A stretch of 37,009 nucleotides of DNA from a virus. Position numbers and translations under genes: made by a program. This document shows, in pieces, positions 5,247-29,518 of the stretch (position 1 is its first letter; every line of letters starts with the position of its first letter). Location: the IMG/VR virus record IMGVR_UViG_3300025886_000077, positions 1 through 37,009 of that record; one strand, given 5' to 3'. The notes beneath the pieces were generated by a model, which saw nothing but the letters and a program-made list of their open reading frames with translations, was not told the DNA's origin and did no database searches.

Positions 5247-5612
5247 TTAATCTATGTTTATTTCTACACCAGCTTCTACGGCAGCTATGCGTAACTTTAA
5301 GTCTGTTAACGAATCTTTAAGTTTTTCAGTGGAGCTGGTTTGCTTTTGTTGCTGAGCACTAAGATACTCTAAAAGCATATCTTGTCTAGCATCAGCAGGG
5401 AGTGACCCCAACTCACCTCTGGGCCATTTTATTCTAAACTCGCTATTCTGAGTTATATCTATTTGAGTTTTATCTAAAGCATGTTCCAAGAGGTTTAGCC
5501 GCTCTTGTATACCGAAGTAAGCCATAGTTGAAACGCAAGTAAAAACAATCATAGCGATTAGGTTTCTGATTGGTATTGTTATACCTGTATTCTCATTTAG
5601 CTCCATTACCAT
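5247..5612 (-). CDS. Membrane-anchored coiled-coil protein, inner-membrane spanin candidate
   Basis: The 121-residue product has a short N-terminus, one hydrophobic segment at about 17-35, and a long polar region with helical, coiled-coil-like stretches (about 38-50 and 85-115). This N-in, C-out single-span layout is that of inner-membrane spanins (lambda Rz class), which bridge to an outer-membrane lipoprotein in the last step of lysis. A lipoprotein candidate lies two genes upstream, nested in another gene (5964-6221). The family is not proven by sequence; a plain membrane-anchored structural protein is the alternative. ATG 5612 overlaps the previous gene by 7 nt; a second ATG two codons on (5606) is also possible. 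It is the last gene of the minus-strand arm. Confidence 0.6.
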   Translation of the reverse strand: MVMELNENTGITIPIRNLIAMIVFTCVSTMAYFGIQERLNLLEHALDKTQIDITQNSEFRIKWPRGELGSLPADARQDMLLEYLSAQQQKQTSSTEKLKDSLTDLKLRIAAVEAGVEINID

Positions 5613-5902
5613 TTCACCTTATCTGCCCAGTAAGCCGCAGACATCTTCCCCTTTGAAATGTTCTTAGCGTGTCTAGCTTTAAAGCTGGCACGTTTTGCTT
5701 TCATGCGGGCAGACTCTCCGGCTTTTGGTTTACCTGCCGTACTCGCTCCTTGTTCTCCAAAGCGTATAGTCTTCGTCTGATCCCCTACCTTAGCTACAAC
5801 CACATGTGATTTAGTCTTGTGGCTTGGAGTCTTCTTAGGCTTATTATATCCTGAGACTCCTGCGTTCTTTAACTTAGAATCTTTTCCTTTAGCTGTGCTC
5901 AT
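5606..5902 (-). CDS. Conserved basic phage protein of unknown function, 98 residues
   Basis: The product is highly basic and rich in Lys, Ala and Gly. The N-terminal half is lysine/proline-rich; the middle has a short beta-like segment (VVVAKVGD and T-I-R-F-G); the C-terminal 35 residues hold R-M-K-A-K-R, S-F-K-A-R-H and a final A-Y-W-A-D-K-V-K-W. The pattern of a phosphate-like basic loop followed by F-x-A-R-H and Y-W-x-x-K-x-W is one I associate with small conserved proteins of tailed phages, but I cannot name a proven function; DNA or RNA binding is a guess from charge. It starts at ATG 5902 within a duplicated start region described separately, and overlaps the spanin-like gene by 7 nt. 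Confidence 0.75.
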   Translation of the reverse strand: MSTAKGKDSKLKNAGVSGYNKPKKTPSHKTKSHVVVAKVGDQTKTIRFGEQGASTAGKPKAGESARMKAKRASFKARHAKNISKGKMSAAYWADKVKW

Positions 5903-5931
5903 GCTTTACGCTCCTGTGTGCTCATGCTTTA
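5894..5931. repeat. 15-bp direct repeat around a start codon
   Basis: The 15-mer TGTGCTCATGCTTTA (plus-strand reading) occurs at 5894-5908 and again at 5917-5931, start to start 23 nt. On the minus strand each copy holds TAAAGC-ATG-AGC-ACA, so the start codon and first two codons of the 98-residue gene are duplicated. The CAGGAG ribosome site lies between the copies. Confidence 0.85.
5899..5925 (-). promoter_or_regulatory. Possible 9-codon leader mini-ORF
   Basis: The upstream copy of the duplicated start opens a frame ATG-AGC-ACA-CAG-GAG-CGT-AAA-GCA-TGA (8 residues, MSTQERKA) whose TGA overlaps the ATG of the 98-residue gene in the ATGA form. The mini-ORF contains the gene's own CAGGAG ribosome site. 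Ribosomes reading it would cover that site, so it could couple or damp translation. It may also be just the remnant of a small duplication; there is no direct evidence of translation. Confidence 0.35.
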
Positions 5932-6417
5932 TCTTTTACCGCCCGGAGTAAAATAGAAACCTATTATAGCTCCCAGAGTGGTGATTGAGACAAGAGAAAT
6001 ATGTCCTGTCGTAATGGCTGTCGTGATGCCTTGGTCGATTGGCATTCTATAGAGTCCCCACAGGATGCTGATTTCTTTTGCTTGCTCTGGTGGTATGAAT
6101 GTGATGAGTTCAACTGTTGGGTAGAGGGTACAGAGAATTGAAACTGTGGCAAAGTTGAGCATCCCGATAAGAGCAATAATCCTACGAGTAGTACGGGTAA
6201 ATATAGTTGCTTCTGGGTCATTGCTTGCGTCTCCGAATATAGCCTTTTGAAACTCAAGATCAGCACCTTTCATCTGCATATCTCGAATCAGTTCTCTTTT
6301 AGCCTCAGCTTCCTTAGCTTCGTTGCGGGCCTGTACAGCACCACCAAGCATCTTCAGCATCGAACCCATGCCGGTAGCACCGAGGGTCGATAGTAACATT
6401 GTAATCAATCCAAACAT
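5929..6417 (-). CDS. Three-span membrane protein, holin-like
   Basis: The 162-residue product has hydrophobic segments at about 3-26, 79-108 and 138-156, with an Ala/Glu/Lys/Arg-rich helix (27-60) between the first and second, and a short basic C-terminus. This resembles the three-span holins of tailed phages and gene-transfer agents, which form lesions in the inner membrane at lysis; I infer the function from topology and from neighbours that look like spanins. A minor virion or injection membrane protein is the alternative. The ribosome site GAGG sits 6 nt before ATG 6417, and the upstream gene ends one base earlier. A second frame inside this gene encodes a lipoprotein candidate. Confidence 0.6.
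   Translation of the reverse strand: MFGLITMLLSTLGATGMGSMLKMLGGAVQARNEAKEAEAKRELIRDMQMKGADLEFQKAIFGDASNDPEATIFTRTTRRIIALIGMLNFATVSILCTLYPTVELITFIPPEQAKEISILWGLYRMPIDQGITTAITTGHISLVSITTLGAIIGFYFTPGGKR
5964..6221 (-). CDS. Nested lipoprotein, outer-membrane spanin candidate
   Basis: Wholly inside the holin-like gene, in another frame of the same strand, an 85-residue frame starts at ATG 6221 with GGAG 9 nt upstream. It begins with a classical lipoprotein signal: MTQK, a Leu/Val stretch, then L-L-S-G-C-S with lipobox C21. Serine at +2 predicts sorting to the outer membrane. The mature part (about 65 residues) is polar, rich in Gln, Ser and Pro, with two more cysteines (C-G-D-S-I-E-C). Small lipoproteins nested in another lysis gene are known (lambda Rz1 inside Rz). 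Here the host gene is not the spanin partner but the membrane protein 162 residues long, with the single-span coiled-coil protein two genes on. A chance hydrophobic frame opposite a membrane segment is the alternative, but the signal, lipobox and ribosome site together make that less likely. Confidence 0.6.
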   Translation of the reverse strand: MTQKQLYLPVLLVGLLLLSGCSTLPQFQFSVPSTQQLNSSHSYHQSKQKKSASCGDSIECQSTKASRQPLRQDIFLLSQSPLWEL

Positions 6418-8861: not shown

Positions 8862-11800
8862 TTATTCTCCCCGTTCCATATTGCGTGTATGCTGTAGTTT
8901 CTGTACTATTACAGCGGCAGAAAACAAAGCATTAAGTTTATCATCGTTTAATAATTTATCTTGTAACTGCGTTCTACTCATATTATTAAGTTCATCTAAA
9001 GTATACCCAGCCGCCTGAGCCGCCTTCGGGCCGAACTGTTTGTTCTCTAATACACTTCTAGCTGTACTTTCAATTACTTGGAATAAGCCTTGTGCGCCTG
9101 TTGAACTAACCTGACTTTCTTTAGGTAAGTTACCACCAGCAGATTCAATTTTAGAAATATCAACCATGCCAGTTTTAAACTCTTCTTTCGGTAAGTTTAA
9201 ATCAGCCATCTCATAATCAAAAGCTCCGCTTTCTAAGGCTGAGTTTACAGAATTCACTACTTCATCTGTGACTTCAATATTCTGAGCTGCATTATAATCT
9301 GCAACTCGATCTTCAAGCGGGCGATCTTCAGCATTATAATCTCTAGCCCAGAGCATTGACCAATCTCTTTGACTTGGCTGACCACCTTCATTAAACATCA
9401 TACGTTTATCTGCCTTATCAAACGTACTAGCATTGATAGATTTGTACTGCTCAGGTCGGAATAAGATATAAGAGTCGCTAGTCTTTTCACCTTTCAATGA
9501 AGGCTCGACCATATTACGATACTTAATAGAATCAAAACCCATGTCTTCTAAAAGCTTTTGTAGCTTTTTAGTTAGCGTCACTTGTCGTAAGCTGCTTGTT
9601 AGTAACTGCTCTGAACTGTTAAAGATGTCAGGGAGAGCAGGAACTTCTAAAGCATCTACCATTAAAACATTTAATCTATCTTGGAATTTCTTAGGTATCT
9701 TCTTCCCTAATCCAGACTTGAGTGCGTCCATAAGTTGATCAGAAGATGAGCTTAAAAGGTTCTCTGCTGACCAGTTAGAAGCGTCTGTAGGGAAGACCAA
9801 TGGGTTCTTAACGTTCACATAGCCTTTCATTATACTAACGCTAGGCATGTCACTAGAAGGCGCTAAGTCCATTGAGCCTACTTGATCTAGTTCATCTGAA
9901 GTTATGTTATCAAAGTCTACATCTTCCATAGTCATCCCCTCACGACGAGCCTGCTCATCTGCAAAGAACCTATCCATTTCAGAACGTTCCATTTTACCAC
10001 CACCAGAGCCGGGGATTGATAATACGTCTTCAGCTTTACGGTCGTTGATCCCTCTGGCTGCCATGTAGTTTGCTTGGCCTTCAGTACCTACGTGTACACC
10101 CATTTCTCTAGGGGATACAAATGCTACCTCAAAGTCTTTTTCTGCGAAGTCAGAGATGCCTCGGAACTTAGGAGTCTTTTCAATAGATGATGCTAAGTAA
10201 GCGTCGAGGTTTTTAAGCCTTGCATCGTCAGAGATTCCGCTTGCTTGACCTACTTCTGTTCGAGGCGAATCAGCTTGCATAGACTTTAAAGTTGTCATCA
10301 GTTCAGCGTTATCAGAATTGTTAGCAATGTAGTTAGTTATAATCTTACGTCTACCTTCATCGGTAATCTCATCAGAAGGTATAAACTTACTATTCCTAGC
10401 AAAAATATCTATAACGTCTTCTAGTCCTTGTACCTGTTCTAACTTATCTGAAGGCGCTAACGTACTTACGTGTGCTTTAGACGCTTCACGAGCTTCCGTT
10501 AGATAGAAAGCAATATCTGCAAACAAGCTCTGGTCAGGATCAGCTTCATCGCCCATCTCAGCTTGATAACTAAAATCGTCTATCTCATCTTGAGTGTATC
10601 CACGAGAGATCTGGAAGTCTTCGCCGTATTCTCCATTACTCTTTTCCTGTATAGCTAAAGTTTCTTTAGAATAAGGCTTGACATCTTGATCCTTTTCCCT
10701 TAAAATAGTCTTCATACTTAACGCTATGTATTCCTCAAGCTCTTCTTCACCACCAAACTCATCTGCTTGTGAGCCAGCAATAGCTCCGAAGTCAGCTTGG
10801 TCTGGGTCGTAAAACTCATCAGCCTGTCCTTTAGCGCCGCTTAAACCAGCAGACTCTTTAATACTATCGACAGCATCGTTAATTAATCGAGGATCTAAGA
10901 TGCCATCTGTTGCATCATTAATAGTCTCAGCTAAGTAACCTGAAAGCTTTGTAGCCCCTTTAGTTACAAGTGAACCGACACTAAAGCCTTGTCGCTCTAC
11001 TTTCTGAGGGTCGAGTTCGTCCATGAAAGCTGAGCCAGCTTGGTAGTTGTACGGCAAACCAGTGACTTTATTAATTCTTTCATCTGGTTCTTTAGGAGCG
11101 TTAGGTACTTCAACAACACCGCCTTTAAGGAACTGTTGTCGTTGTATGTCATACTCAAACTTAGGAACAAAACCTTTTAAGTCTTTATCTCTTTCACGCA
11201 ACATGGTTTTATACTTACGCATGTTCTCAGGGCCAACTACAGTAGAGCCTGCCGCAAAGAAAGGAATCTTAGTGCCTAATACTTGATTATATTTACCGTA
11301 AGCTAAACCTAAAGCGTCAGTAGCTATAGGCCCAAAAGGTGCAGTAGCATATCCGGTTATCGTGCCTGAATACTTTGCAGCATCACCGGCCCGTTGTAAG
11401 TTGTCAAAAAGTAAACCGTTACCACCCCAACGCTTTATAGCTGAAAGACGAGCCTCTGTAGGCGTGGTGTCTCTTTCACTTTTACCATTACTGCGGTAGT
11501 AATTAGTCATGCGAGCTGTTTCAGTCATTAACAAACCAGCCATTGCCAGCTTAGGTACGTTGCGTCCTGCGTCTTTTGTTACAGCTTTAGCAGCCCCTTT
11601 AAGGATTGTGTTTGTAAATGCTGCGGGGTAGCCTAATAGTTGGAAAGCTATTGTAGTTCTAGGGTTAGTGTGTAGTAGCGGCTTTAAACCTGACATTGCA
11701 GAGGGCTGTAAGATTACTGAGTTAGTATATCGTGCAGCTCCGTTATTTATTTGACCAGTAAAAGCGTCTTCTTTTTTAGCGCCTCCTTTAAACCAAGCAA

Positions 11801-14279
11801 TACCGTCATCAGGGTCGATGTTAAGTTCCAAGAGTTCGCCCCTTAAAGTCTCAATGCGTGGTGTAGGAGGTTGATTACCATGGATTGCAAGCTTCTCTAT
11901 ATTTTCTTCAATCAAGTTCCTACCGCTTATATACGAAGTTGTCTGTACAAACTTAGTCCACTGATCTAGGAAGTTCATGCGGAAAAACTTATTACTTACT
12001 TTCTGCATAGTGTCTGAAGCAAAATCGTCACCACCTAAGCGGTTCCCTGCTTGAGATTGTGCTTGCTCCATTGCGAGGCTATGTTTCTTTAACTCTCTAA
12101 AAGCTTCATTAGCTGTCATGCCTTTCTTGGTCATTAGCTCAGAATGTAAATCACCTGTCATCTTTTTAAAGCTTAACTCAGATGCTTCAGCAAAACCTTT
12201 AACAGAGTTTAACACTCCAGCTTTACCGATGTTAATAAATACTTCTGTTAAACTACCAATAGTCGCTAAAGGTAGTAGAGCTAAACGTGTACCGAGTGAA
12301 TAGGTATCTGCTGCTGTCTGCATCTTTGAACCATAACGCTCCATGTTTTCACCAGTAGCAGATCTATAAAGCTCTCGAATTTGTTCCCGCTCTTTCTTAT
12401 CAAGAGTTTTACCAGCAGATTTCATTTCTTTTACAATGGGATTAATCCACTGACTCATAAATTCTTTTTCATTAGAAGCCATCAATACTTTCTTTTTAGC
12501 CAGAGCTTTACCAGCTTGATAGTTATAATCCGCAGTCATGCCAATTAAATCAGTATTTAAAAAATCTGTAAATACAGAATCATCTTCAAATGTAAACTTA
12601 CGTTTAGCCGCAAAGAACTGACCGCCTGAACCGCCGTCGAGTTGATTTTCAATATCTAACATGCTCTCTGTAATTCGTTTAGCTTCGGCTGCATTTTTAG
12701 CTTCACCAGATTTCATGAGTAGTAATTCAAATCTTTCAGGGTCAGATTCAATAGCTTTCCTATTCCACATACGGGGAATATAGTTTTCTATTTTATTAGC
12801 TATAACGCCTTCAGAGTATAATTGATCACCTATAGTTTTATATAGACCTTGAATCTGTTTAGCTGCAATACCTATTTCTTTTGGTACGCCTTTAAAGTCT
12901 CCACGAATAGCTTGGTTTAGTAGATCGTTAACCTTGTCTGAGACATCACCTTTAATTGTATTTAAAGCTAAAGGCTCTACGATTTTTAAGTATCGTGTAT
13001 TAAACTCGCCCGTGTATCGTGCTTGAGCTTCGCTTAAATCCATCCCAATACGTGTTTTAGTTTTTCCAAAGCCTTCTGCAAACTCATGACTTAAACGTGT
13101 TTGTAAAGTCTTAGCTGTTTTAGAGAACTTAGTATATGGAGTTAAGACTCCAGCACTCTTACCAAATAAATTACCAGTTAAGTCTGTAGTAAACTGCCAG
13201 ACACTAAAAGCTAATTTATTTTTAATCTGCTCGCCAGTAGCGCCAGAGTTTAATGCTCCAGTTACTACCGCTTTAAATTCTTCTTTAGTGGCATCACCGC
13301 CACCTATGTCGTTTACAAAATCGTTAACAACATTATCTACATCCACGTCTTTCATGTTTATCACAGACCCTTCAGGGCCTTCTAGTAAACGATCAGCAGC
13401 GTTGACAACCTTACTACCACTAGCCGGTATCCATTCACCGTCGATGCCTTCATCAAACAAAACCATACCTTTACTTTCACTCATTACAGGCGCTTTTTCC
13501 AAATCATCAGCAAGTCTTTTAGTCGCATACTTACTAGCTACTTTACCTATACCGTATGAAAGAGCACCACCCATTAATGCACCTGCTCCAGTTGCCGTAG
13601 CTGCTTGACCTAAATCAATGCCATCTTTACGCTCGCCAATTTCAACCTCAAGATCTTGAACTGCTAAGTCTTGGATGCCTGAAATAGCGCCTGTATAAGC
13701 AGCAGTGCTCTTAATGGGGTTGGATGATGCCTTAGCTAAGACTTTAGCAAGCGCTGTTTTAGCCCCAGCACGTACAGAAGCTTGCGCCGTAGCGCCTCCC
13801 ACATTACCGAATATTAAAGAAAGAGCAGTGGGTAATGTTTCGAAGTTAGCTAGTACGTCCATGCCGTAGTCTTTAGCAGCGTCAATCGTTTCTTTTGTTC
13901 CTGTAACTTCAGTGTCTTCCCACTTAGCTCTGAGATCTCTATAAGCTCGTTTAACATCTTCAGGTGCGTCCGACAAAGCAGCAGCTTTACCCGCTACAGC
14001 AGTGATGCGTAAAAAATCATCACGCAAGAACTCAGCAGGGCCTGAATCACTGTCAAGCATTTTAGTTGCAAAGTCTTGATGATCACCTAAGTAAGAGGTT
14101 AGAATATCATAATCTCTAACGACTTCAGAATCATTTTCAAAGTTGGTTACAGTCGGGCGCTTGTAAGAGGTTACTCTATTTATTTCTTCCTCAGATAATA
14201 AAGGCTCTGTAGGCCCACCCTCAAAGTTATCTAAACTAGAGTGCATCTGTTCCATTCTACTTAATAAGGTATCTGACAT
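8862..14279 (-). CDS. Large internal virion/ejection protein with ADP-ribosyltransferase and lytic transglycosylase domains
   Basis: The 1805-residue product holds the place of T7 gp16, the largest core protein injected with the DNA. Order of parts: acidic N-terminus (1-100); Ala/Gly-rich amphipathic helices (about 140-250) suited to crossing membranes; a long helical body (about 350-1000) with N-Y-I-P-R-M-W near 500 and a T-N-P-R-T-T-I-A-F block near 873, as in large polyvalent phage proteins; an acidic linker (about 1150-1250); an ADP-ribosyltransferase-like domain (about 1377-1620) with H1396 in G-V-H-V-G-T, Y-V-N-V-K-N-P-L at 1487, G-F-D-S-I-K-Y at 1581 and F-R-P-E-Q-Y-K-S-I at 1607; and a C-terminal transglycosylase-like domain with E1712 in I-E-S and G-A-Q-G-L-F-Q at 1728. 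In T7 the transglycosylase is N-terminal, so the order is reversed. It overlaps the 630-residue gene by one base. Confidence 0.85.
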   Translation of the reverse strand: MSDTLLSRMEQMHSSLDNFEGGPTEPLLSEEEINRVTSYKRPTVTNFENDSEVVRDYDILTSYLGDHQDFATKMLDSDSGPAEFLRDDFLRITAVAGKAAALSDAPEDVKRAYRDLRAKWEDTEVTGTKETIDAAKDYGMDVLANFETLPTALSLIFGNVGGATAQASVRAGAKTALAKVLAKASSNPIKSTAAYTGAISGIQDLAVQDLEVEIGERKDGIDLGQAATATGAGALMGGALSYGIGKVASKYATKRLADDLEKAPVMSESKGMVLFDEGIDGEWIPASGSKVVNAADRLLEGPEGSVINMKDVDVDNVVNDFVNDIGGGDATKEEFKAVVTGALNSGATGEQIKNKLAFSVWQFTTDLTGNLFGKSAGVLTPYTKFSKTAKTLQTRLSHEFAEGFGKTKTRIGMDLSEAQARYTGEFNTRYLKIVEPLALNTIKGDVSDKVNDLLNQAIRGDFKGVPKEIGIAAKQIQGLYKTIGDQLYSEGVIANKIENYIPRMWNRKAIESDPERFELLLMKSGEAKNAAEAKRITESMLDIENQLDGGSGGQFFAAKRKFTFEDDSVFTDFLNTDLIGMTADYNYQAGKALAKKKVLMASNEKEFMSQWINPIVKEMKSAGKTLDKKEREQIRELYRSATGENMERYGSKMQTAADTYSLGTRLALLPLATIGSLTEVFINIGKAGVLNSVKGFAEASELSFKKMTGDLHSELMTKKGMTANEAFRELKKHSLAMEQAQSQAGNRLGGDDFASDTMQKVSNKFFRMNFLDQWTKFVQTTSYISGRNLIEENIEKLAIHGNQPPTPRIETLRGELLELNIDPDDGIAWFKGGAKKEDAFTGQINNGAARYTNSVILQPSAMSGLKPLLHTNPRTTIAFQLLGYPAAFTNTILKGAAKAVTKDAGRNVPKLAMAGLLMTETARMTNYYRSNGKSERDTTPTEARLSAIKRWGGNGLLFDNLQRAGDAAKYSGTITGYATAPFGPIATDALGLAYGKYNQVLGTKIPFFAAGSTVVGPENMRKYKTMLRERDKDLKGFVPKFEYDIQRQQFLKGGVVEVPNAPKEPDERINKVTGLPYNYQAGSAFMDELDPQKVERQGFSVGSLVTKGATKLSGYLAETINDATDGILDPRLINDAVDSIKESAGLSGAKGQADEFYDPDQADFGAIAGSQADEFGGEEELEEYIALSMKTILREKDQDVKPYSKETLAIQEKSNGEYGEDFQISRGYTQDEIDDFSYQAEMGDEADPDQSLFADIAFYLTEAREASKAHVSTLAPSDKLEQVQGLEDVIDIFARNSKFIPSDEITDEGRRKIITNYIANNSDNAELMTTLKSMQADSPRTEVGQASGISDDARLKNLDAYLASSIEKTPKFRGISDFAEKDFEVAFVSPREMGVHVGTEGQANYMAARGINDRKAEDVLSIPGSGGGKMERSEMDRFFADEQARREGMTMEDVDFDNITSDELDQVGSMDLAPSSDMPSVSIMKGYVNVKNPLVFPTDASNWSAENLLSSSSDQLMDALKSGLGKKIPKKFQDRLNVLMVDALEVPALPDIFNSSEQLLTSSLRQVTLTKKLQKLLEDMGFDSIKYRNMVEPSLKGEKTSDSYILFRPEQYKSINASTFDKADKRMMFNEGGQPSQRDWSMLWARDYNAEDRPLEDRVADYNAAQNIEVTDEVVNSVNSALESGAFDYEMADLNLPKEEFKTGMVDISKIESAGGNLPKESQVSSTGAQGLFQVIESTARSVLENKQFGPKAAQAAGYTLDELNNMSRTQLQDKLLNDDKLNALFSAAVIVQKLQHTRNMERGE

Positions 14280-17961: not shown

Positions 17962-20900
17962 TTAATTATTGTTTGACTCTTCGTCATCACCTAAACCAAC
18001 AGCATCTAACGTTTGTACAAGGCTCATTGCTGGTGTCACACCGATAGCCGCATAAGATGTATCAGCTGCCATGGTTGCAGTAGCAATTTGAATTATTCTA
18101 TTTTGATTATTTTCATAGTTATTGTTTGCAAACATAATTTCATCTTGAAGTTCCCGCCACACCTGAGCTTGTTTTTGTTGAGACATTGCAAAGGCATTTG
18201 CTACGTTCTGACGATTAGCATCATTGATAGCTGCTGTATCCGCAGTGTTTGCATTTCTACGCCAAGTTAAATCTCCTTGCTGTATAGTTTGTGCATTAGA
18301 AGCGTTCCACTGCTCACGTTGGTTAGCCATGTTTAAATTAAATTGCTCTGTGTCAGACGCTAGTGTAGCATTAGCAATAGAAGCTTGTAATTGATTGCCT
18401 GCATTCTCAGCGTTGATTTTGTTTTCTTGTTCTACATTAAACTTAGCCATTGATGAAATAGCAGTAGCGTTATATTGATCTATCTGAGCACCTAACGTAG
18501 CCATAAACTGATCTGTTTGCGCTACGCTCTCAGCATTAAACTGATTTGTAGCATTTGCTGCTGCCGTATCAGCTAATAGAATTTGTTGCTCCTGCTGAGA
18601 ACCTAGAATTTCTACTTGCTGTTCATTAGACATATTAGATAAGTCCATCTGTAGAAAGTTTGAAGCGTTCTGCACAGAGACCTTAGTGCGGTTATCTGCG
18701 TTTGATAAATCCATAGAGGCTTGGTTAGTCGCATTCTGTAAGATAGCTGTGTTCTTAGCATCAAACTCATTCATAGTCATTGTTTGTGCAAACTTACTAT
18801 TAACCAATTCAACCTGAGATGCTGCATCAAACTTAGCTAAATCAATGTTTGCATTAGTTTGGGCGTTAACAACAGCTCGTTGTTGATCTGCGTTTAACTG
18901 GGCAACACCCATATTGCTTGCAATGTCGGCTTGAGTTAAGTTGGTTTTTAACGTAGCTTCTAAGTTTGCTAATTCAGTTTGTTGTGTAGCTGTTAAGTTG
19001 TCTGAGCTTGCTTGGTTCTGAGCTTTTAAGTTTGCAAGCTTCATCTGAGACTCAGTGCTCATGTTAGCAATGTCCATAGAGTTTTTCAACTCAGCGTTCT
19101 TAGACAAGAATTCTGCCGCAACGTTCATTTCTGCAAGCTTTCTTTGGTTGTCTGCTGTCATGTTATCTCGATCAGACGCAGCTTCAAACTCTAAATTAGC
19201 AAGAGTCATTTGCTGTTCGTTACCCAGATTTAATGCCATTGTTTCTTGACGGTTTCTGTTGTTCTGTTCAGCAGTACGTTGACGATTCTCTAAGTTTTGT
19301 ACTCGTACTTGTTGCTCTTGTGCCGCAGTAGAGATCACAGCTTCTTGGGTGAAAGAGCTTTGAAGCTTCTTCATCTCATTAGCCATTTGAGCTGTCTGAC
19401 TTACAGCAGTTTGTTGGTTAGCTAAGTTAGCTAAACGTCGATTCATATCTAACGTAGCTGTTGTGATATTAGCTTGCTGCTCGTTATCTAAATTCTGAGC
19501 TGCTCGTTTCTGTAAAGCGTTAGCATTGTTTTCAGCAATAGGTAAAGCACTTTGAATAATTGCATTGAATAAAGAATCACGACCGATGGTAGAAGATGAT
19601 AAACCTCTTTTAGCTAACATTGCATTGGTTGCATCTACGGCAGGTCTTGCCCACGCTGGAACTTTATTTTCTTCTAACGAACCTAACAAGTTCTCCATCT
19701 GCGAAGACATTAAAGCTTCTTTAGGTAACGCTGCAATAGCTGCTCTTACTTCAACAGGTTGGTTATCTAACTGGGCTTCTACTTTTTCAGGGTCTTCTAC
19801 AATAGCTGCTGTGATTGCTGGTGGTAGATCACCTACTTCTGCAAGCATCTCAGAGGCTGCACCTACAGCGGCTTCGCCTTTAACTGGACGAGTTTTAGTA
19901 ATGTCGTAACCTAGTACTGCTGTAATCTGTGCGGCTTCCATAGGTGTAAAAGTATCGTCAGTAATTGCATCACGTTGGGCCGCTTCTGCCGCAGGTGTTG
20001 CCGCTACTATGATCTTCTCACCCGTCACAGGGTCTACTGTGGACTTCGTAGAGACATCAAAGCCTACGTTCTGTGCTAATGCTGCCTGCTCTGCTGCTGT
20101 GTTACGGTCAGCTACTGTAGCCTCTGTAGACATCGTTGCGTCAGTTGAAACGGCAGTAGAGCCTTCGGAGATTTCGCCTGTAACAGCTTTAGCATCTCCG
20201 TAGGTAGACATAAACTCTCGTTGTTTGCCCTGAAAGGTTTGAGCCTGTGCGATAAAGTCTGAATCAAAAGCTTTTAAATCTGCTTGAGCTTTAGCCAGCG
20301 CACCTTCATCACCTGATGCGCCTGCTGTTTGATAAGCTTGTGCTAACGCAGCTCGCTCAGGGTTAGCCATATGTGCATCACTTGCTTCTTTGAACGCAAC
20401 AGCTTCAGGTGTTAGGTTAAAAGCCTCGGAAGCTTTTTGCTGCTTTACTTGATCCGCTGAAACTGTGTTTACTGTCTGAGCTACTACAGGTGCGGCTTGA
20501 GTAGTTGTAGCGGCTTGAGCAGCGTCAACAGCTTCTAAATTAGTTGCTCCGACCGTAGGCGCTGTAGCTTGAGTCATAGTACCTAACTCTTTAATATCGT
20601 CTTCAGCGGTAACTAAAGTCTTATCTGTTTTAGCAACAGTATCTAAAGCGTCTATAGGGGCTGCTGTATCTGCTAAATCAGTTACATCGTCAGTTATTTC
20701 ATTAAGTGCCATGCCGTCATCTCCGTTTGTCCCGCCAAGATTTAAACCTTCTAAAACTTGTCCGAGATCAGAATTATCATATGTTGTTGAATCTGTGTTT
20801 GAATCTTCTTCTTCATCTTCTGTTACTTCAAGGTCTTCAGGCTCTGGGTCTGGAACCGTGATCGGGTTTGTATCTGCGGTAACTGTACCCCCAGTAACAA

Positions 20901-27916: not shown

Positions 27917-29518
27917 TTATCTCCTGCCTGCTGGCACGTAATCTATGAAAAGACCATTAATACGGTAAGAACCTTTTTGGTCGTCACTTATAATTGAAAA
28001 GTTTGCTGTGTGTCCACTGCCCTGAACAGCCTGTCTAACCATCGGATCACCGATACCGCCATAAGCGCTTTCCCCATACCTTGAAAGTCCATATACAGAA
28101 GGTACAGGAATCGTAGTCATTACATAAGGGGTTGGTTGCGGAGCCTCTACGCTGTTATAATCGTATCTAACATGTAGTGTTGGGATTACAGTAGACTCAG
28201 GGCTGATTGAGACTTTTACATAGTGTAGTGTTTTTCTGCTACCCACGTCTCCGAAATCATAGAACGGGGTGACGTACCTAGAGTTTATATTGAAAGCAAC
28301 CCCTTCGTTATAAAAACTTTTACCTTGATCATGTAAATATACATAACCGTTTTTATCACCATGATAATATTTTTCTACACCATCTGTATCAAAACTTGAA
28401 TCCAAAGCATGAGCTTGAATACCTACTGTTTCTGACCACTCAAAACCGTTATTAGTTAGTGTGCCTATGATGCCTTTAGAGCCTGATACAAGCTCGTCAG
28501 CTTCTGAGTAGAAAAGTCTATATTGATTTTTACTTCGAATGACAGCGCTTGAAACAATAAGATTATTAATATTTTTTGCAAGCTTTGCAAATGTGGGCTG
28601 GACTTGACGACTGATTGAGCTTAACTCTACGTCACCAATACGGGCTGTACCTGCAACTGTGCGTATGCCATCAGAACTCAGAAATACTAAATCGCCGCCT
28701 ATCTCTTGTATACTACCGGCTGCAATGCACCCTACGTTTGTAGTAATAGGTACTATAGCTTCCCCGTCATTTACGCCAGCTCCCATGTTAACAAACTTAT
28801 GGATGCTGTTAGCACAAAATATAATAACGTCATTACGGAAACTTTTTAAACCTACAATAGTATCTCCAAGAACTAAGTGTGCTCCTGTCGAAAAGTTAGT
28901 GACGCTACCTACAGAACTATAATATAAAGAAGTTCCTGCTCCTACCACGAGGCGTGTTTCGTGTCGAGTACCTACAGACGGTGTGGTGGCTGAGTCTACT
29001 ACGAATTCATGGCCGTTATAAGTTCGAGTATCTAAATCGCCAGTGCCTTTAATTGTAAGAGTAAACGGCAGGTTATCACCGTCTAAAATAACTACAGTTC
29101 CATTGTCTCCTATACCTTCTTCATACACAAAGCTTGTCTGGCCTTGACCTGTTCTATCTACAAGAGTTTTACCACCACCAGTTACGAAATACTCAGCATA
29201 CGTGTGATCTGTATTAGTTTGTCCGGCTCTAGCTACATTGACCCAAGTTATACCGTCTATTGTAAACATAATAGCGCTGCCGGAACAAACAAGTAGTCCT
29301 CCCGCATAAGCCATGATACCTTTAATATCCGCAGTTCCATTTGGCTTAGCTGTACCGTAAGGAGTGTAACCATTAATTCTACGGTATCCGGAGTCTGAAT
29401 CGACCTCAAAGTTTTGAAGCTCTATAGCTGTTCCGGGCGCACCCAAAGCAGCGAGCTGATTAGTATTAGTATCTAATCCGCCTTTACATACAAAACCAAA
29501 AGGTTGTGAAGCAGCCAT
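27917..29518 (-). CDS. Tail tube/nozzle protein (T7 gp12 position)
   Basis: The 533-residue product is beta-rich with repeated G-x-x-V/I-x-x-x-D/G strands, as in a propeller-like nozzle protein. It opens with F-V-C-K-G-G-L-D-T-N-T-N and E-L-Q-N-F-E-V-D, the type of start seen in podovirus tail-tube B and P22-gp10-like DNA-stabilising proteins. It is shorter than T7 gp12 (about 790 residues). Position after the tail-tube A-like gene and before the fibre fits the tail tip role: closing the tube and holding the fibres. There is one base of overlap with the upstream gene. Assignment rests on position plus general beta composition. Confidence 0.68.
   Translation of the reverse strand: MAASQPFGFVCKGGLDTNTNQLAALGAPGTAIELQNFEVDSDSGYRRINGYTPYGTAKPNGTADIKGIMAYAGGLLVCSGSAIMFTIDGITWVNVARAGQTNTDHTYAEYFVTGGGKTLVDRTGQGQTSFVYEEGIGDNGTVVILDGDNLPFTLTIKGTGDLDTRTYNGHEFVVDSATTPSVGTRHETRLVVGAGTSLYYSSVGSVTNFSTGAHLVLGDTIVGLKSFRNDVIIFCANSIHKFVNMGAGVNDGEAIVPITTNVGCIAAGSIQEIGGDLVFLSSDGIRTVAGTARIGDVELSSISRQVQPTFAKLAKNINNLIVSSAVIRSKNQYRLFYSEADELVSGSKGIIGTLTNNGFEWSETVGIQAHALDSSFDTDGVEKYYHGDKNGYVYLHDQGKSFYNEGVAFNINSRYVTPFYDFGDVGSRKTLHYVKVSISPESTVIPTLHVRYDYNSVEAPQPTPYVMTTIPVPSVYGLSRYGESAYGGIGDPMVRQAVQGSGHTANFSIISDDQKGSYRINGLFIDYVPAGRR

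Follow-up and report, generated by a model that had tools for sequence, protein, structure and literature searches.

The window examined here, the whole 37,009-nucleotide stretch of IMG/VR record IMGVR_UViG_3300025886_000077, came from a podovirus-like phage with relatives in the HMO-2011 group; its portal protein is 63% identical to that of Pelagibacter phage HTVC115P. On its minus strand, a gene for a membrane protein (hereafter the container) held a second, complete open reading frame in its +1 frame, with the product MTQKQLYLPVLLVGLLLLSGCSTLPQ...SPLWEL (Table 1). The container possessed two strong hydrophobic segments (residues 80-98 and 140-158) and a weak one (residues 3-21), the third forming the end of the protein, in agreement with the three spans and 162 residues given in a first-pass annotation. 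Arg/Lys clusters, among them those at residues 31-58 and 75-79, lay ahead of the second segment and behind the third, and the C-terminus was charged (GGKR). Under the positive-inside rule the middle helix and the C-terminus are predicted to be cytoplasmic, in the N-out/C-in orientation of class I holins.

Table 1. Features of the container locus and its neighbors in the window.
Feature	Position	Strand	Description
Container gene	5929-6417	-	162 aa; three-span, holin-like membrane protein
Nested +1-frame lipoprotein gene, candidate o-spanin	5964-6221	-	85 aa: 20-aa signal peptide + 65-aa mature part
Shine-Dalgarno-like GGAG	6231-6234	-	9 nt 5' of nested ATG
Lipobox L-S-G-C of nested protein (Cys21)	6159-6170	-	Out-of-frame reading of container L83-I84-G85-M86 codons
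98-aa basic protein between container and 121-aa gene	5606-5902	-	phrog_7595
121-aa protein, candidate i-spanin	5247-5612	-	One N-terminal span (residues 17-35), coiled-coil-like rest; phrog_20984

The nested frame matched its first description as an 85-residue minus-strand frame with a GGAG site, a hydrophobic core and an L-L-S-G-C-S lipobox (L18-S19-G20-C21, with serine at +2). The "basic start" of that description was present only as one lysine (K4), the sole basic residue of the n-region ahead of the hydrophobic core. Signal peptides were called by rule, and by this rule a Sec/SPII signal peptide with a lipobox near the N-terminus, a feature of outer-membrane spanins (o-spanins), was found across three clades of homologues. 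The product reads MTQKQLYLPVLLVGLLLLSGC|STLPQ...SPLWEL, and serine at +2 predicts sorting to the outer membrane. The mature part was of low complexity and evolved fast, and tandem stops closed the frame just short of the container end. A six-frame lipoprotein scan of the window returned the nested frame as its only plausible match; the two other matches had no credible lipobox or signal peptide and were set aside.

Container homologues, gathered from viral contigs and bacterial genome contigs, were found in more than 200 marine viral contigs and fell into three clades with amino acid identities to the window protein of 85-100% (clade A), 61-76% (clade B) and 34-39% (clade C). We scored 148 distinct homologues (34-100% amino acid identity) under a strict rule that demanded a start codon, a K or R, at least 9 hydrophobic residues in 12, a lipobox and at least 45 amino acids after the cysteine. 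A +1-frame lipoprotein passed in 131 of them, bearing out the expectation that homologues keep the second frame open with its lipobox, and in 35 of 38 members of an extra clade C set; the signal was present in all three clades. The viral contigs overlap in origin, so that sequence counts are not counts of independent events, and an analysis of 41 representatives below 85% nucleotide identity, together with the three clades, is a safer basis than raw sequence counts. Among these representatives, 36 carried the +1-frame lipoprotein and none (0/41) had one in the +2 frame under the same rule. When the same proteins were recoded, the rule was passed at a rate of 0.0011 (synonymous codon shuffle) or 0.0 (codon-usage resampling), and a +1 stretch free of stops for 85 codons or more, found in 41/41 representatives, occurred in 11% or 0% of these nulls. 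Many clade B members had no ATG, so that GTG or TTG would have to serve as the nested start, and two of them (L070 and L079) had no good nested start.

A related family offered a natural control. The container profile aligned to the family of gp50 of HTVC103P (phrog_38283, from pelagiphages and roseophages) with an hhalign probability of 97.2% (E 2.9e-11), and the two share an N-terminal pattern, a TRRIIAL segment and an IIG(F/L)YF end. HTVC103P gp50 also occupies the same genome position as the container, and the nearby gp48 is a homologue of the window's 121-residue protein. A nested lipoprotein was found in 0 of 74 distinct members of phrog_38283, each of which had at least nine stops in the +1 frame; therefore, the nested gene was either gained in one part of the wider family or lost in the other.

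Selection on the shared DNA was assessed from synonymous differences between sequence pairs within a clade, with permutations that assume exchangeable codon columns and take no account of the tree. In clade A, synonymous differences in the container fell to 0.12 of expectation at codons 77-87, a value as low in 0 of 20,000 permutations, and in clade B to 0.48 of expectation at codons 81-91 (p 0.004); both minima coincide exactly with the nested signal peptide and lipobox. The tightest block in clade C lay over the nested C-terminal part (p 0.00075). Across all three clades the nested body was slower than the container 5' part (permutation p 0.0038, 0.0052 and <0.0001). Upstream of the nested start, the container Gly62 codon that spells the GGAG site was GGA in 24 of 25 clade A sequences and GGG in the other one. 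Stops per sequence in the nested region were strongly depleted against expectation in each clade (A, 0.00 versus 5.15; B, 0.38 versus 6.01; C, 0.37 versus 5.20), and in the container 5' part they came close to expectation in clade A (5.40 versus 4.05) and in clade C (2.31 versus 2.73); the 5' part of clade B, with 2.00 stops versus 3.78 expected, was somewhat depleted too, to about half. The dNN/dNS ratios were mixed. The anticipated bias against nonsynonymous change in the nested frame was seen in clade A (0.19 in the signal region and 0.27 in the body versus 0.56 outside) and in the clade C body (0.44 versus 0.86 outside), but not in the clade C signal region (1.48) or in clade B, where the nested region did not differ from the rest; we therefore relied on synonymous constraint and stop avoidance.

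The lipobox codons gave a more specific view. The third base of the container Gly85 codon sets position -1 of the lipobox (GGG gives Gly, GGC Ala, GGA Glu and GGT Val), and among 81 clade A and B sequences this codon was GGG in 73 and GGC in 8, with GGA and GGT absent; glycine codons elsewhere in the same gene were GGT (201), GGA (141), GGC (114) and GGG (65). Leu83 was CTT in 76 of the 81, and Ile84 was never ATA, which would be a +1 stop. In some clade C sequences the lipobox was shifted six codons upstream (LLGGC-SH, LVGC-SR). GGA or GGT appeared at codon 85 in 16 clade C sequences, all 16 of which had the shifted box, and the 43 with the box at its old place used only GGG or GGC. Both boxes occurred in 16 clade C sequences and at least one in 67/67. 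Read at the codon level, this pattern is one that conservation of the container's own motif cannot produce. Four clade C sequences (L115, L116, L129 and L145) carry two lipoboxes in succession, spaced by six codons, and resemble relocation intermediates.

These results bear on two explanations that would dispense with a nested gene. The frame might be a chance shadow, its lipobox mirroring the conserved IALIGM motif of the container: regions that code for membrane segments yield hydrophobic shadow frames, a concern raised when the frame was first noticed, and the container Met86 codon partly forces the cysteine codon. Recodings that preserve the container, however, produced the nested lipoprotein in only about 0.1% of cases, the related family yielded none despite similar TRRIIAL segments, and the lipobox has relocated yet stays kept in DNA where synonymous sites are frozen and stops avoided. 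Simulation, control family and relocation together rule chance out, and we give it a very small probability. The constrained block in clade A was short and near-invariant at the nucleotide level, as it would be if the synonymous constraint came from an RNA or DNA element at codons 76-88, such as a promoter, a packaging signal or a regulatory structure. Such an element would not predict constraint at the ribosome site, start and C-terminus, nor the GGA/GGT pattern tied to lipobox relocation, and it is ruled out by stop avoidance that spans the entire nested frame, making it very improbable.

On this comparative evidence, selection on the DNA common to both genes was shown to preserve the nested frame, from its ribosome site and start through the signal peptide and lipobox to the C-terminal end. 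Constraint, stop avoidance, null simulation and the control family all indicate a true coding gene in an alternative frame, as embedded o-spanins have; stops or lipobox loss in most homologues, or a lack of extra constraint, named beforehand as grounds for rejection, were not observed. We consider the overlapping gene almost certainly real, and its product very probably a lipoprotein.

The identity of the container was approached through structure, family searches and topology. Pfam and PHROG searches gave no usable family for either the container or the nested protein, and the container had no significant match to known holin families. The AlphaFold model of the container was poor (mean pLDDT 59), and a Foldseek search with it against viral models gave no significant match. 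Queried by tblastn, cultured phages showed no match to the container, to its homologue from clade C or to the nested protein. Pfam PF11351 (GTA_holin_3TM) shares its layout with the container, including an N-terminal hydrophobic stretch, a charged helix, an Arg-rich start of the second span and a third span near the C-terminus, but without a significant sequence relation (hhalign 16%; weak, marginal matches in 3 of 33 members); membership was rejected, as the window protein had no match and 0 of 30 records scored above the cut-off. What the container does have is the build of a holin, a small membrane protein with one to three spans and a charged C-terminus. The assignment draws on topology and context only, and we regard the container as probably a holin.

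Genomic context in relatives points to lysis. The gene directly after the container encodes a Pesticin-type lysozyme in L022 (Pfam Pesticin, 5.8e-30), and in L012 the product of the following gene is lysozyme-like. L027 has a SleB-type cell-wall hydrolase upstream, and in L036 the gene directly downstream matches an Rz-like-spanin family (phrog_739, 6e-5). Owing to these lysozyme, hydrolase and Rz-like neighbors, the view that container and nested gene belong to a lysis cassette of a holin-like protein and an o-spanin is supported, with lysis as the presumed function. The first-pass suggestion of a lysis cassette with a different nesting plan was partly supported: the evidence for the nested gene is strong, and the container adjoins a lysozyme gene in some relatives, while its role as a holin draws on topology and context. 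In the window, no endolysin was seen beside the container and no clear one was found elsewhere. A 533-residue protein (27917-29518, minus strand) has a full-length match to a PHROG named amidase and may be a virion protein rather than an endolysin. Another large protein of the window (1805 residues, 8862-14279, minus strand) showed a weak ART-PolyVal (ADP-ribosyltransferase) match at residues 1482-1619, below the family cut-off. Six clade B loci (L027, L031, L036, L055, L064 and L077) have a recurrent pair of single-span proteins of 94 and 90-98 residues downstream of the container (MTGDILNF... and MSG.(D/E)F..WAD...), the first of which looks holin-like.

We favor, with reasonable though limited confidence, a role for the nested product as an o-spanin. 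After export and lipidation at Cys21 it would be directed to the outer membrane and form the outer-membrane half of a two-part spanin. There it would join a single-span, coiled-coil inner-membrane partner (i-spanin), which in the window would most likely be the 121-residue protein, and the pair would fuse or disrupt the outer membrane once holin and endolysin have acted. Nesting would couple this outer-membrane lysis protein to the holin mRNA, making a similar time and level of synthesis probable, much as in lambda Rz1 within Rz but with another gene as host. The 121-residue protein was as first described, with a single span, and a homologue lies directly upstream of the container in two distant clade C loci (L114 and L125). 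The gene is absent beside the container in the close relatives L001-L004, however, and a homologue is present in HTVC103P, in which no convincing lipoprotein ORF was found; because of both, its proposed role as partner is only plausible. No single family always adjoined the container, and other single-span coil proteins lay elsewhere with none constant, so a universal i-spanin beside it was rejected.

This inconstancy leaves room for a different partner or a different function. If the container were itself the partner, an unusual multi-span inner-membrane spanin rather than a holin, the locus would follow the classical plan of Rz1 in Rz, and the lack of any other constant partner would be explained. 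A long helix predicted at container residues 2-60 could then serve as a periplasmic coil, and one family member had a marginal Rz-like PHROG match (0.12). Against this, the positive-inside rule, applied to the Arg/Lys clusters (residues 31-58 and 75-79), puts the helix on the cytoplasmic side, the two or three spans do not fit a type II i-spanin, and two strong hydrophobic segments plus a weak one are not the layout of an i-spanin, with its single N-terminal span and periplasmic coil. Moreover, the HTVC103P relative has been kept although no convincing lipoprotein ORF was found there. We consider the container an improbable partner.

The nested protein could also be a genuine lipoprotein other than a spanin, for instance one that bars superinfecting phages at the outer membrane, or one that modulates the holin-like container protein. 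All the coding evidence would fit any lipoprotein, the partner gene is inconsistent among relatives, and in podovirus-type clade C members (L086, 5001-5465; L101; L112) the container gene sits, oddly for a gene of lysis, between the scaffold-like gene and that of the major capsid protein. Nesting of an antiholin inside a holin gene is, in addition, already known (PMC9025707). Several lineages, however, have genes for a lysozyme or a cell-wall hydrolase next to the container, and small size, a low-complexity mature domain and an embedded layout are traits of Rz1-type o-spanins. An antiholin-like modulator is further disfavored by the nature of embedded antiholins, which are membrane or cytoplasmic proteins and are not known to be lipoproteins. 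Overall, a lipoprotein of another function is possible but the less likely outcome, and an overprinted +1-frame lipoprotein gene acting as an o-spanin with a separate i-spanin is, in our judgment, the best account of the locus as a whole, and a fairly likely one.

Each known arrangement resembles this locus in part. As in lambda Rz/Rz1, a small lipoprotein gene lies wholly within a lysis gene in the +1 frame and has a consensus lipobox and a short, fast-evolving mature domain; lambda Rz1, however, sits in the gene of its partner, the single-span i-spanin Rz, whereas the container here is three-span and holin-like and the candidate partner is separate. As in T4 (pseT.3/pseT.2), the candidate o-spanin and i-spanin occupy different genes, but the T4 o-spanin has its own DNA, while here it is overprinted and a 98-residue gene separates it from the candidate partner. 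A second lysis-related product within a holin gene recalls the antiholins reported in PMC9025707, where an antiholin embedded in a holin gene is stated. The nested gene differs from these in its frame and product: it is a lipoprotein in another frame, while antiholins commonly share the holin frame or are membrane or cytoplasmic proteins. In the full-text literature available outside subscription papers, we looked for holin genes that enclose the gene of a spanin or other lipoprotein, and only antiholin cases came up. Nested lipoprotein genes appear hitherto to have been described solely inside the gene of the partner protein, and we found no earlier account of such a nesting plan in the literature searched.

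Two-component spanins have been classed as embedded, overlapped or separated, with the embedded o-spanin lying in the i-spanin gene; about 13% of the surveyed phages, with many marine ones among them, yielded no spanin, and phage lipoprotein genes, being rare, served as a route to spanins (Kongari et al. 2018, PMC6139136). Surveys that define the embedded o-spanin in this way may miss one inside a holin-like container. We lean, with less assurance than for the o-spanin role itself, toward the view that a large group of marine phages carries an o-spanin inside a holin gene, a third embedded layout besides Rz1 in Rz and antiholin in holin, overprinted after divergence from related phages in which no lipoprotein gene was found. 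If so, some of the marine phages counted as "spanin-less" would be accounted for, and the outer-membrane step would be linked to the holin mRNA. The nested gene would also add a new example of a gene born de novo through overprinting, the sister family representing the empty state. Together with the container it makes a putative lysis cassette of abundant ocean phages open to direct testing. Within the sister family, a relaxed six-frame scan that covered Skadi-4 (L203, 34.9 kb) and the initial 50 kb of HTVC103P (L204) returned no convincing lipoprotein ORF, and both cultured pelagiphages seem to lack a spanin of the usual kind. The 143-residue, three-span, holin-like gp50-family protein of Skadi-4 (18794-19225) and related Skadi records is annotated as "peptidase M15", a label at odds with the protein's sequence and probably wrong.
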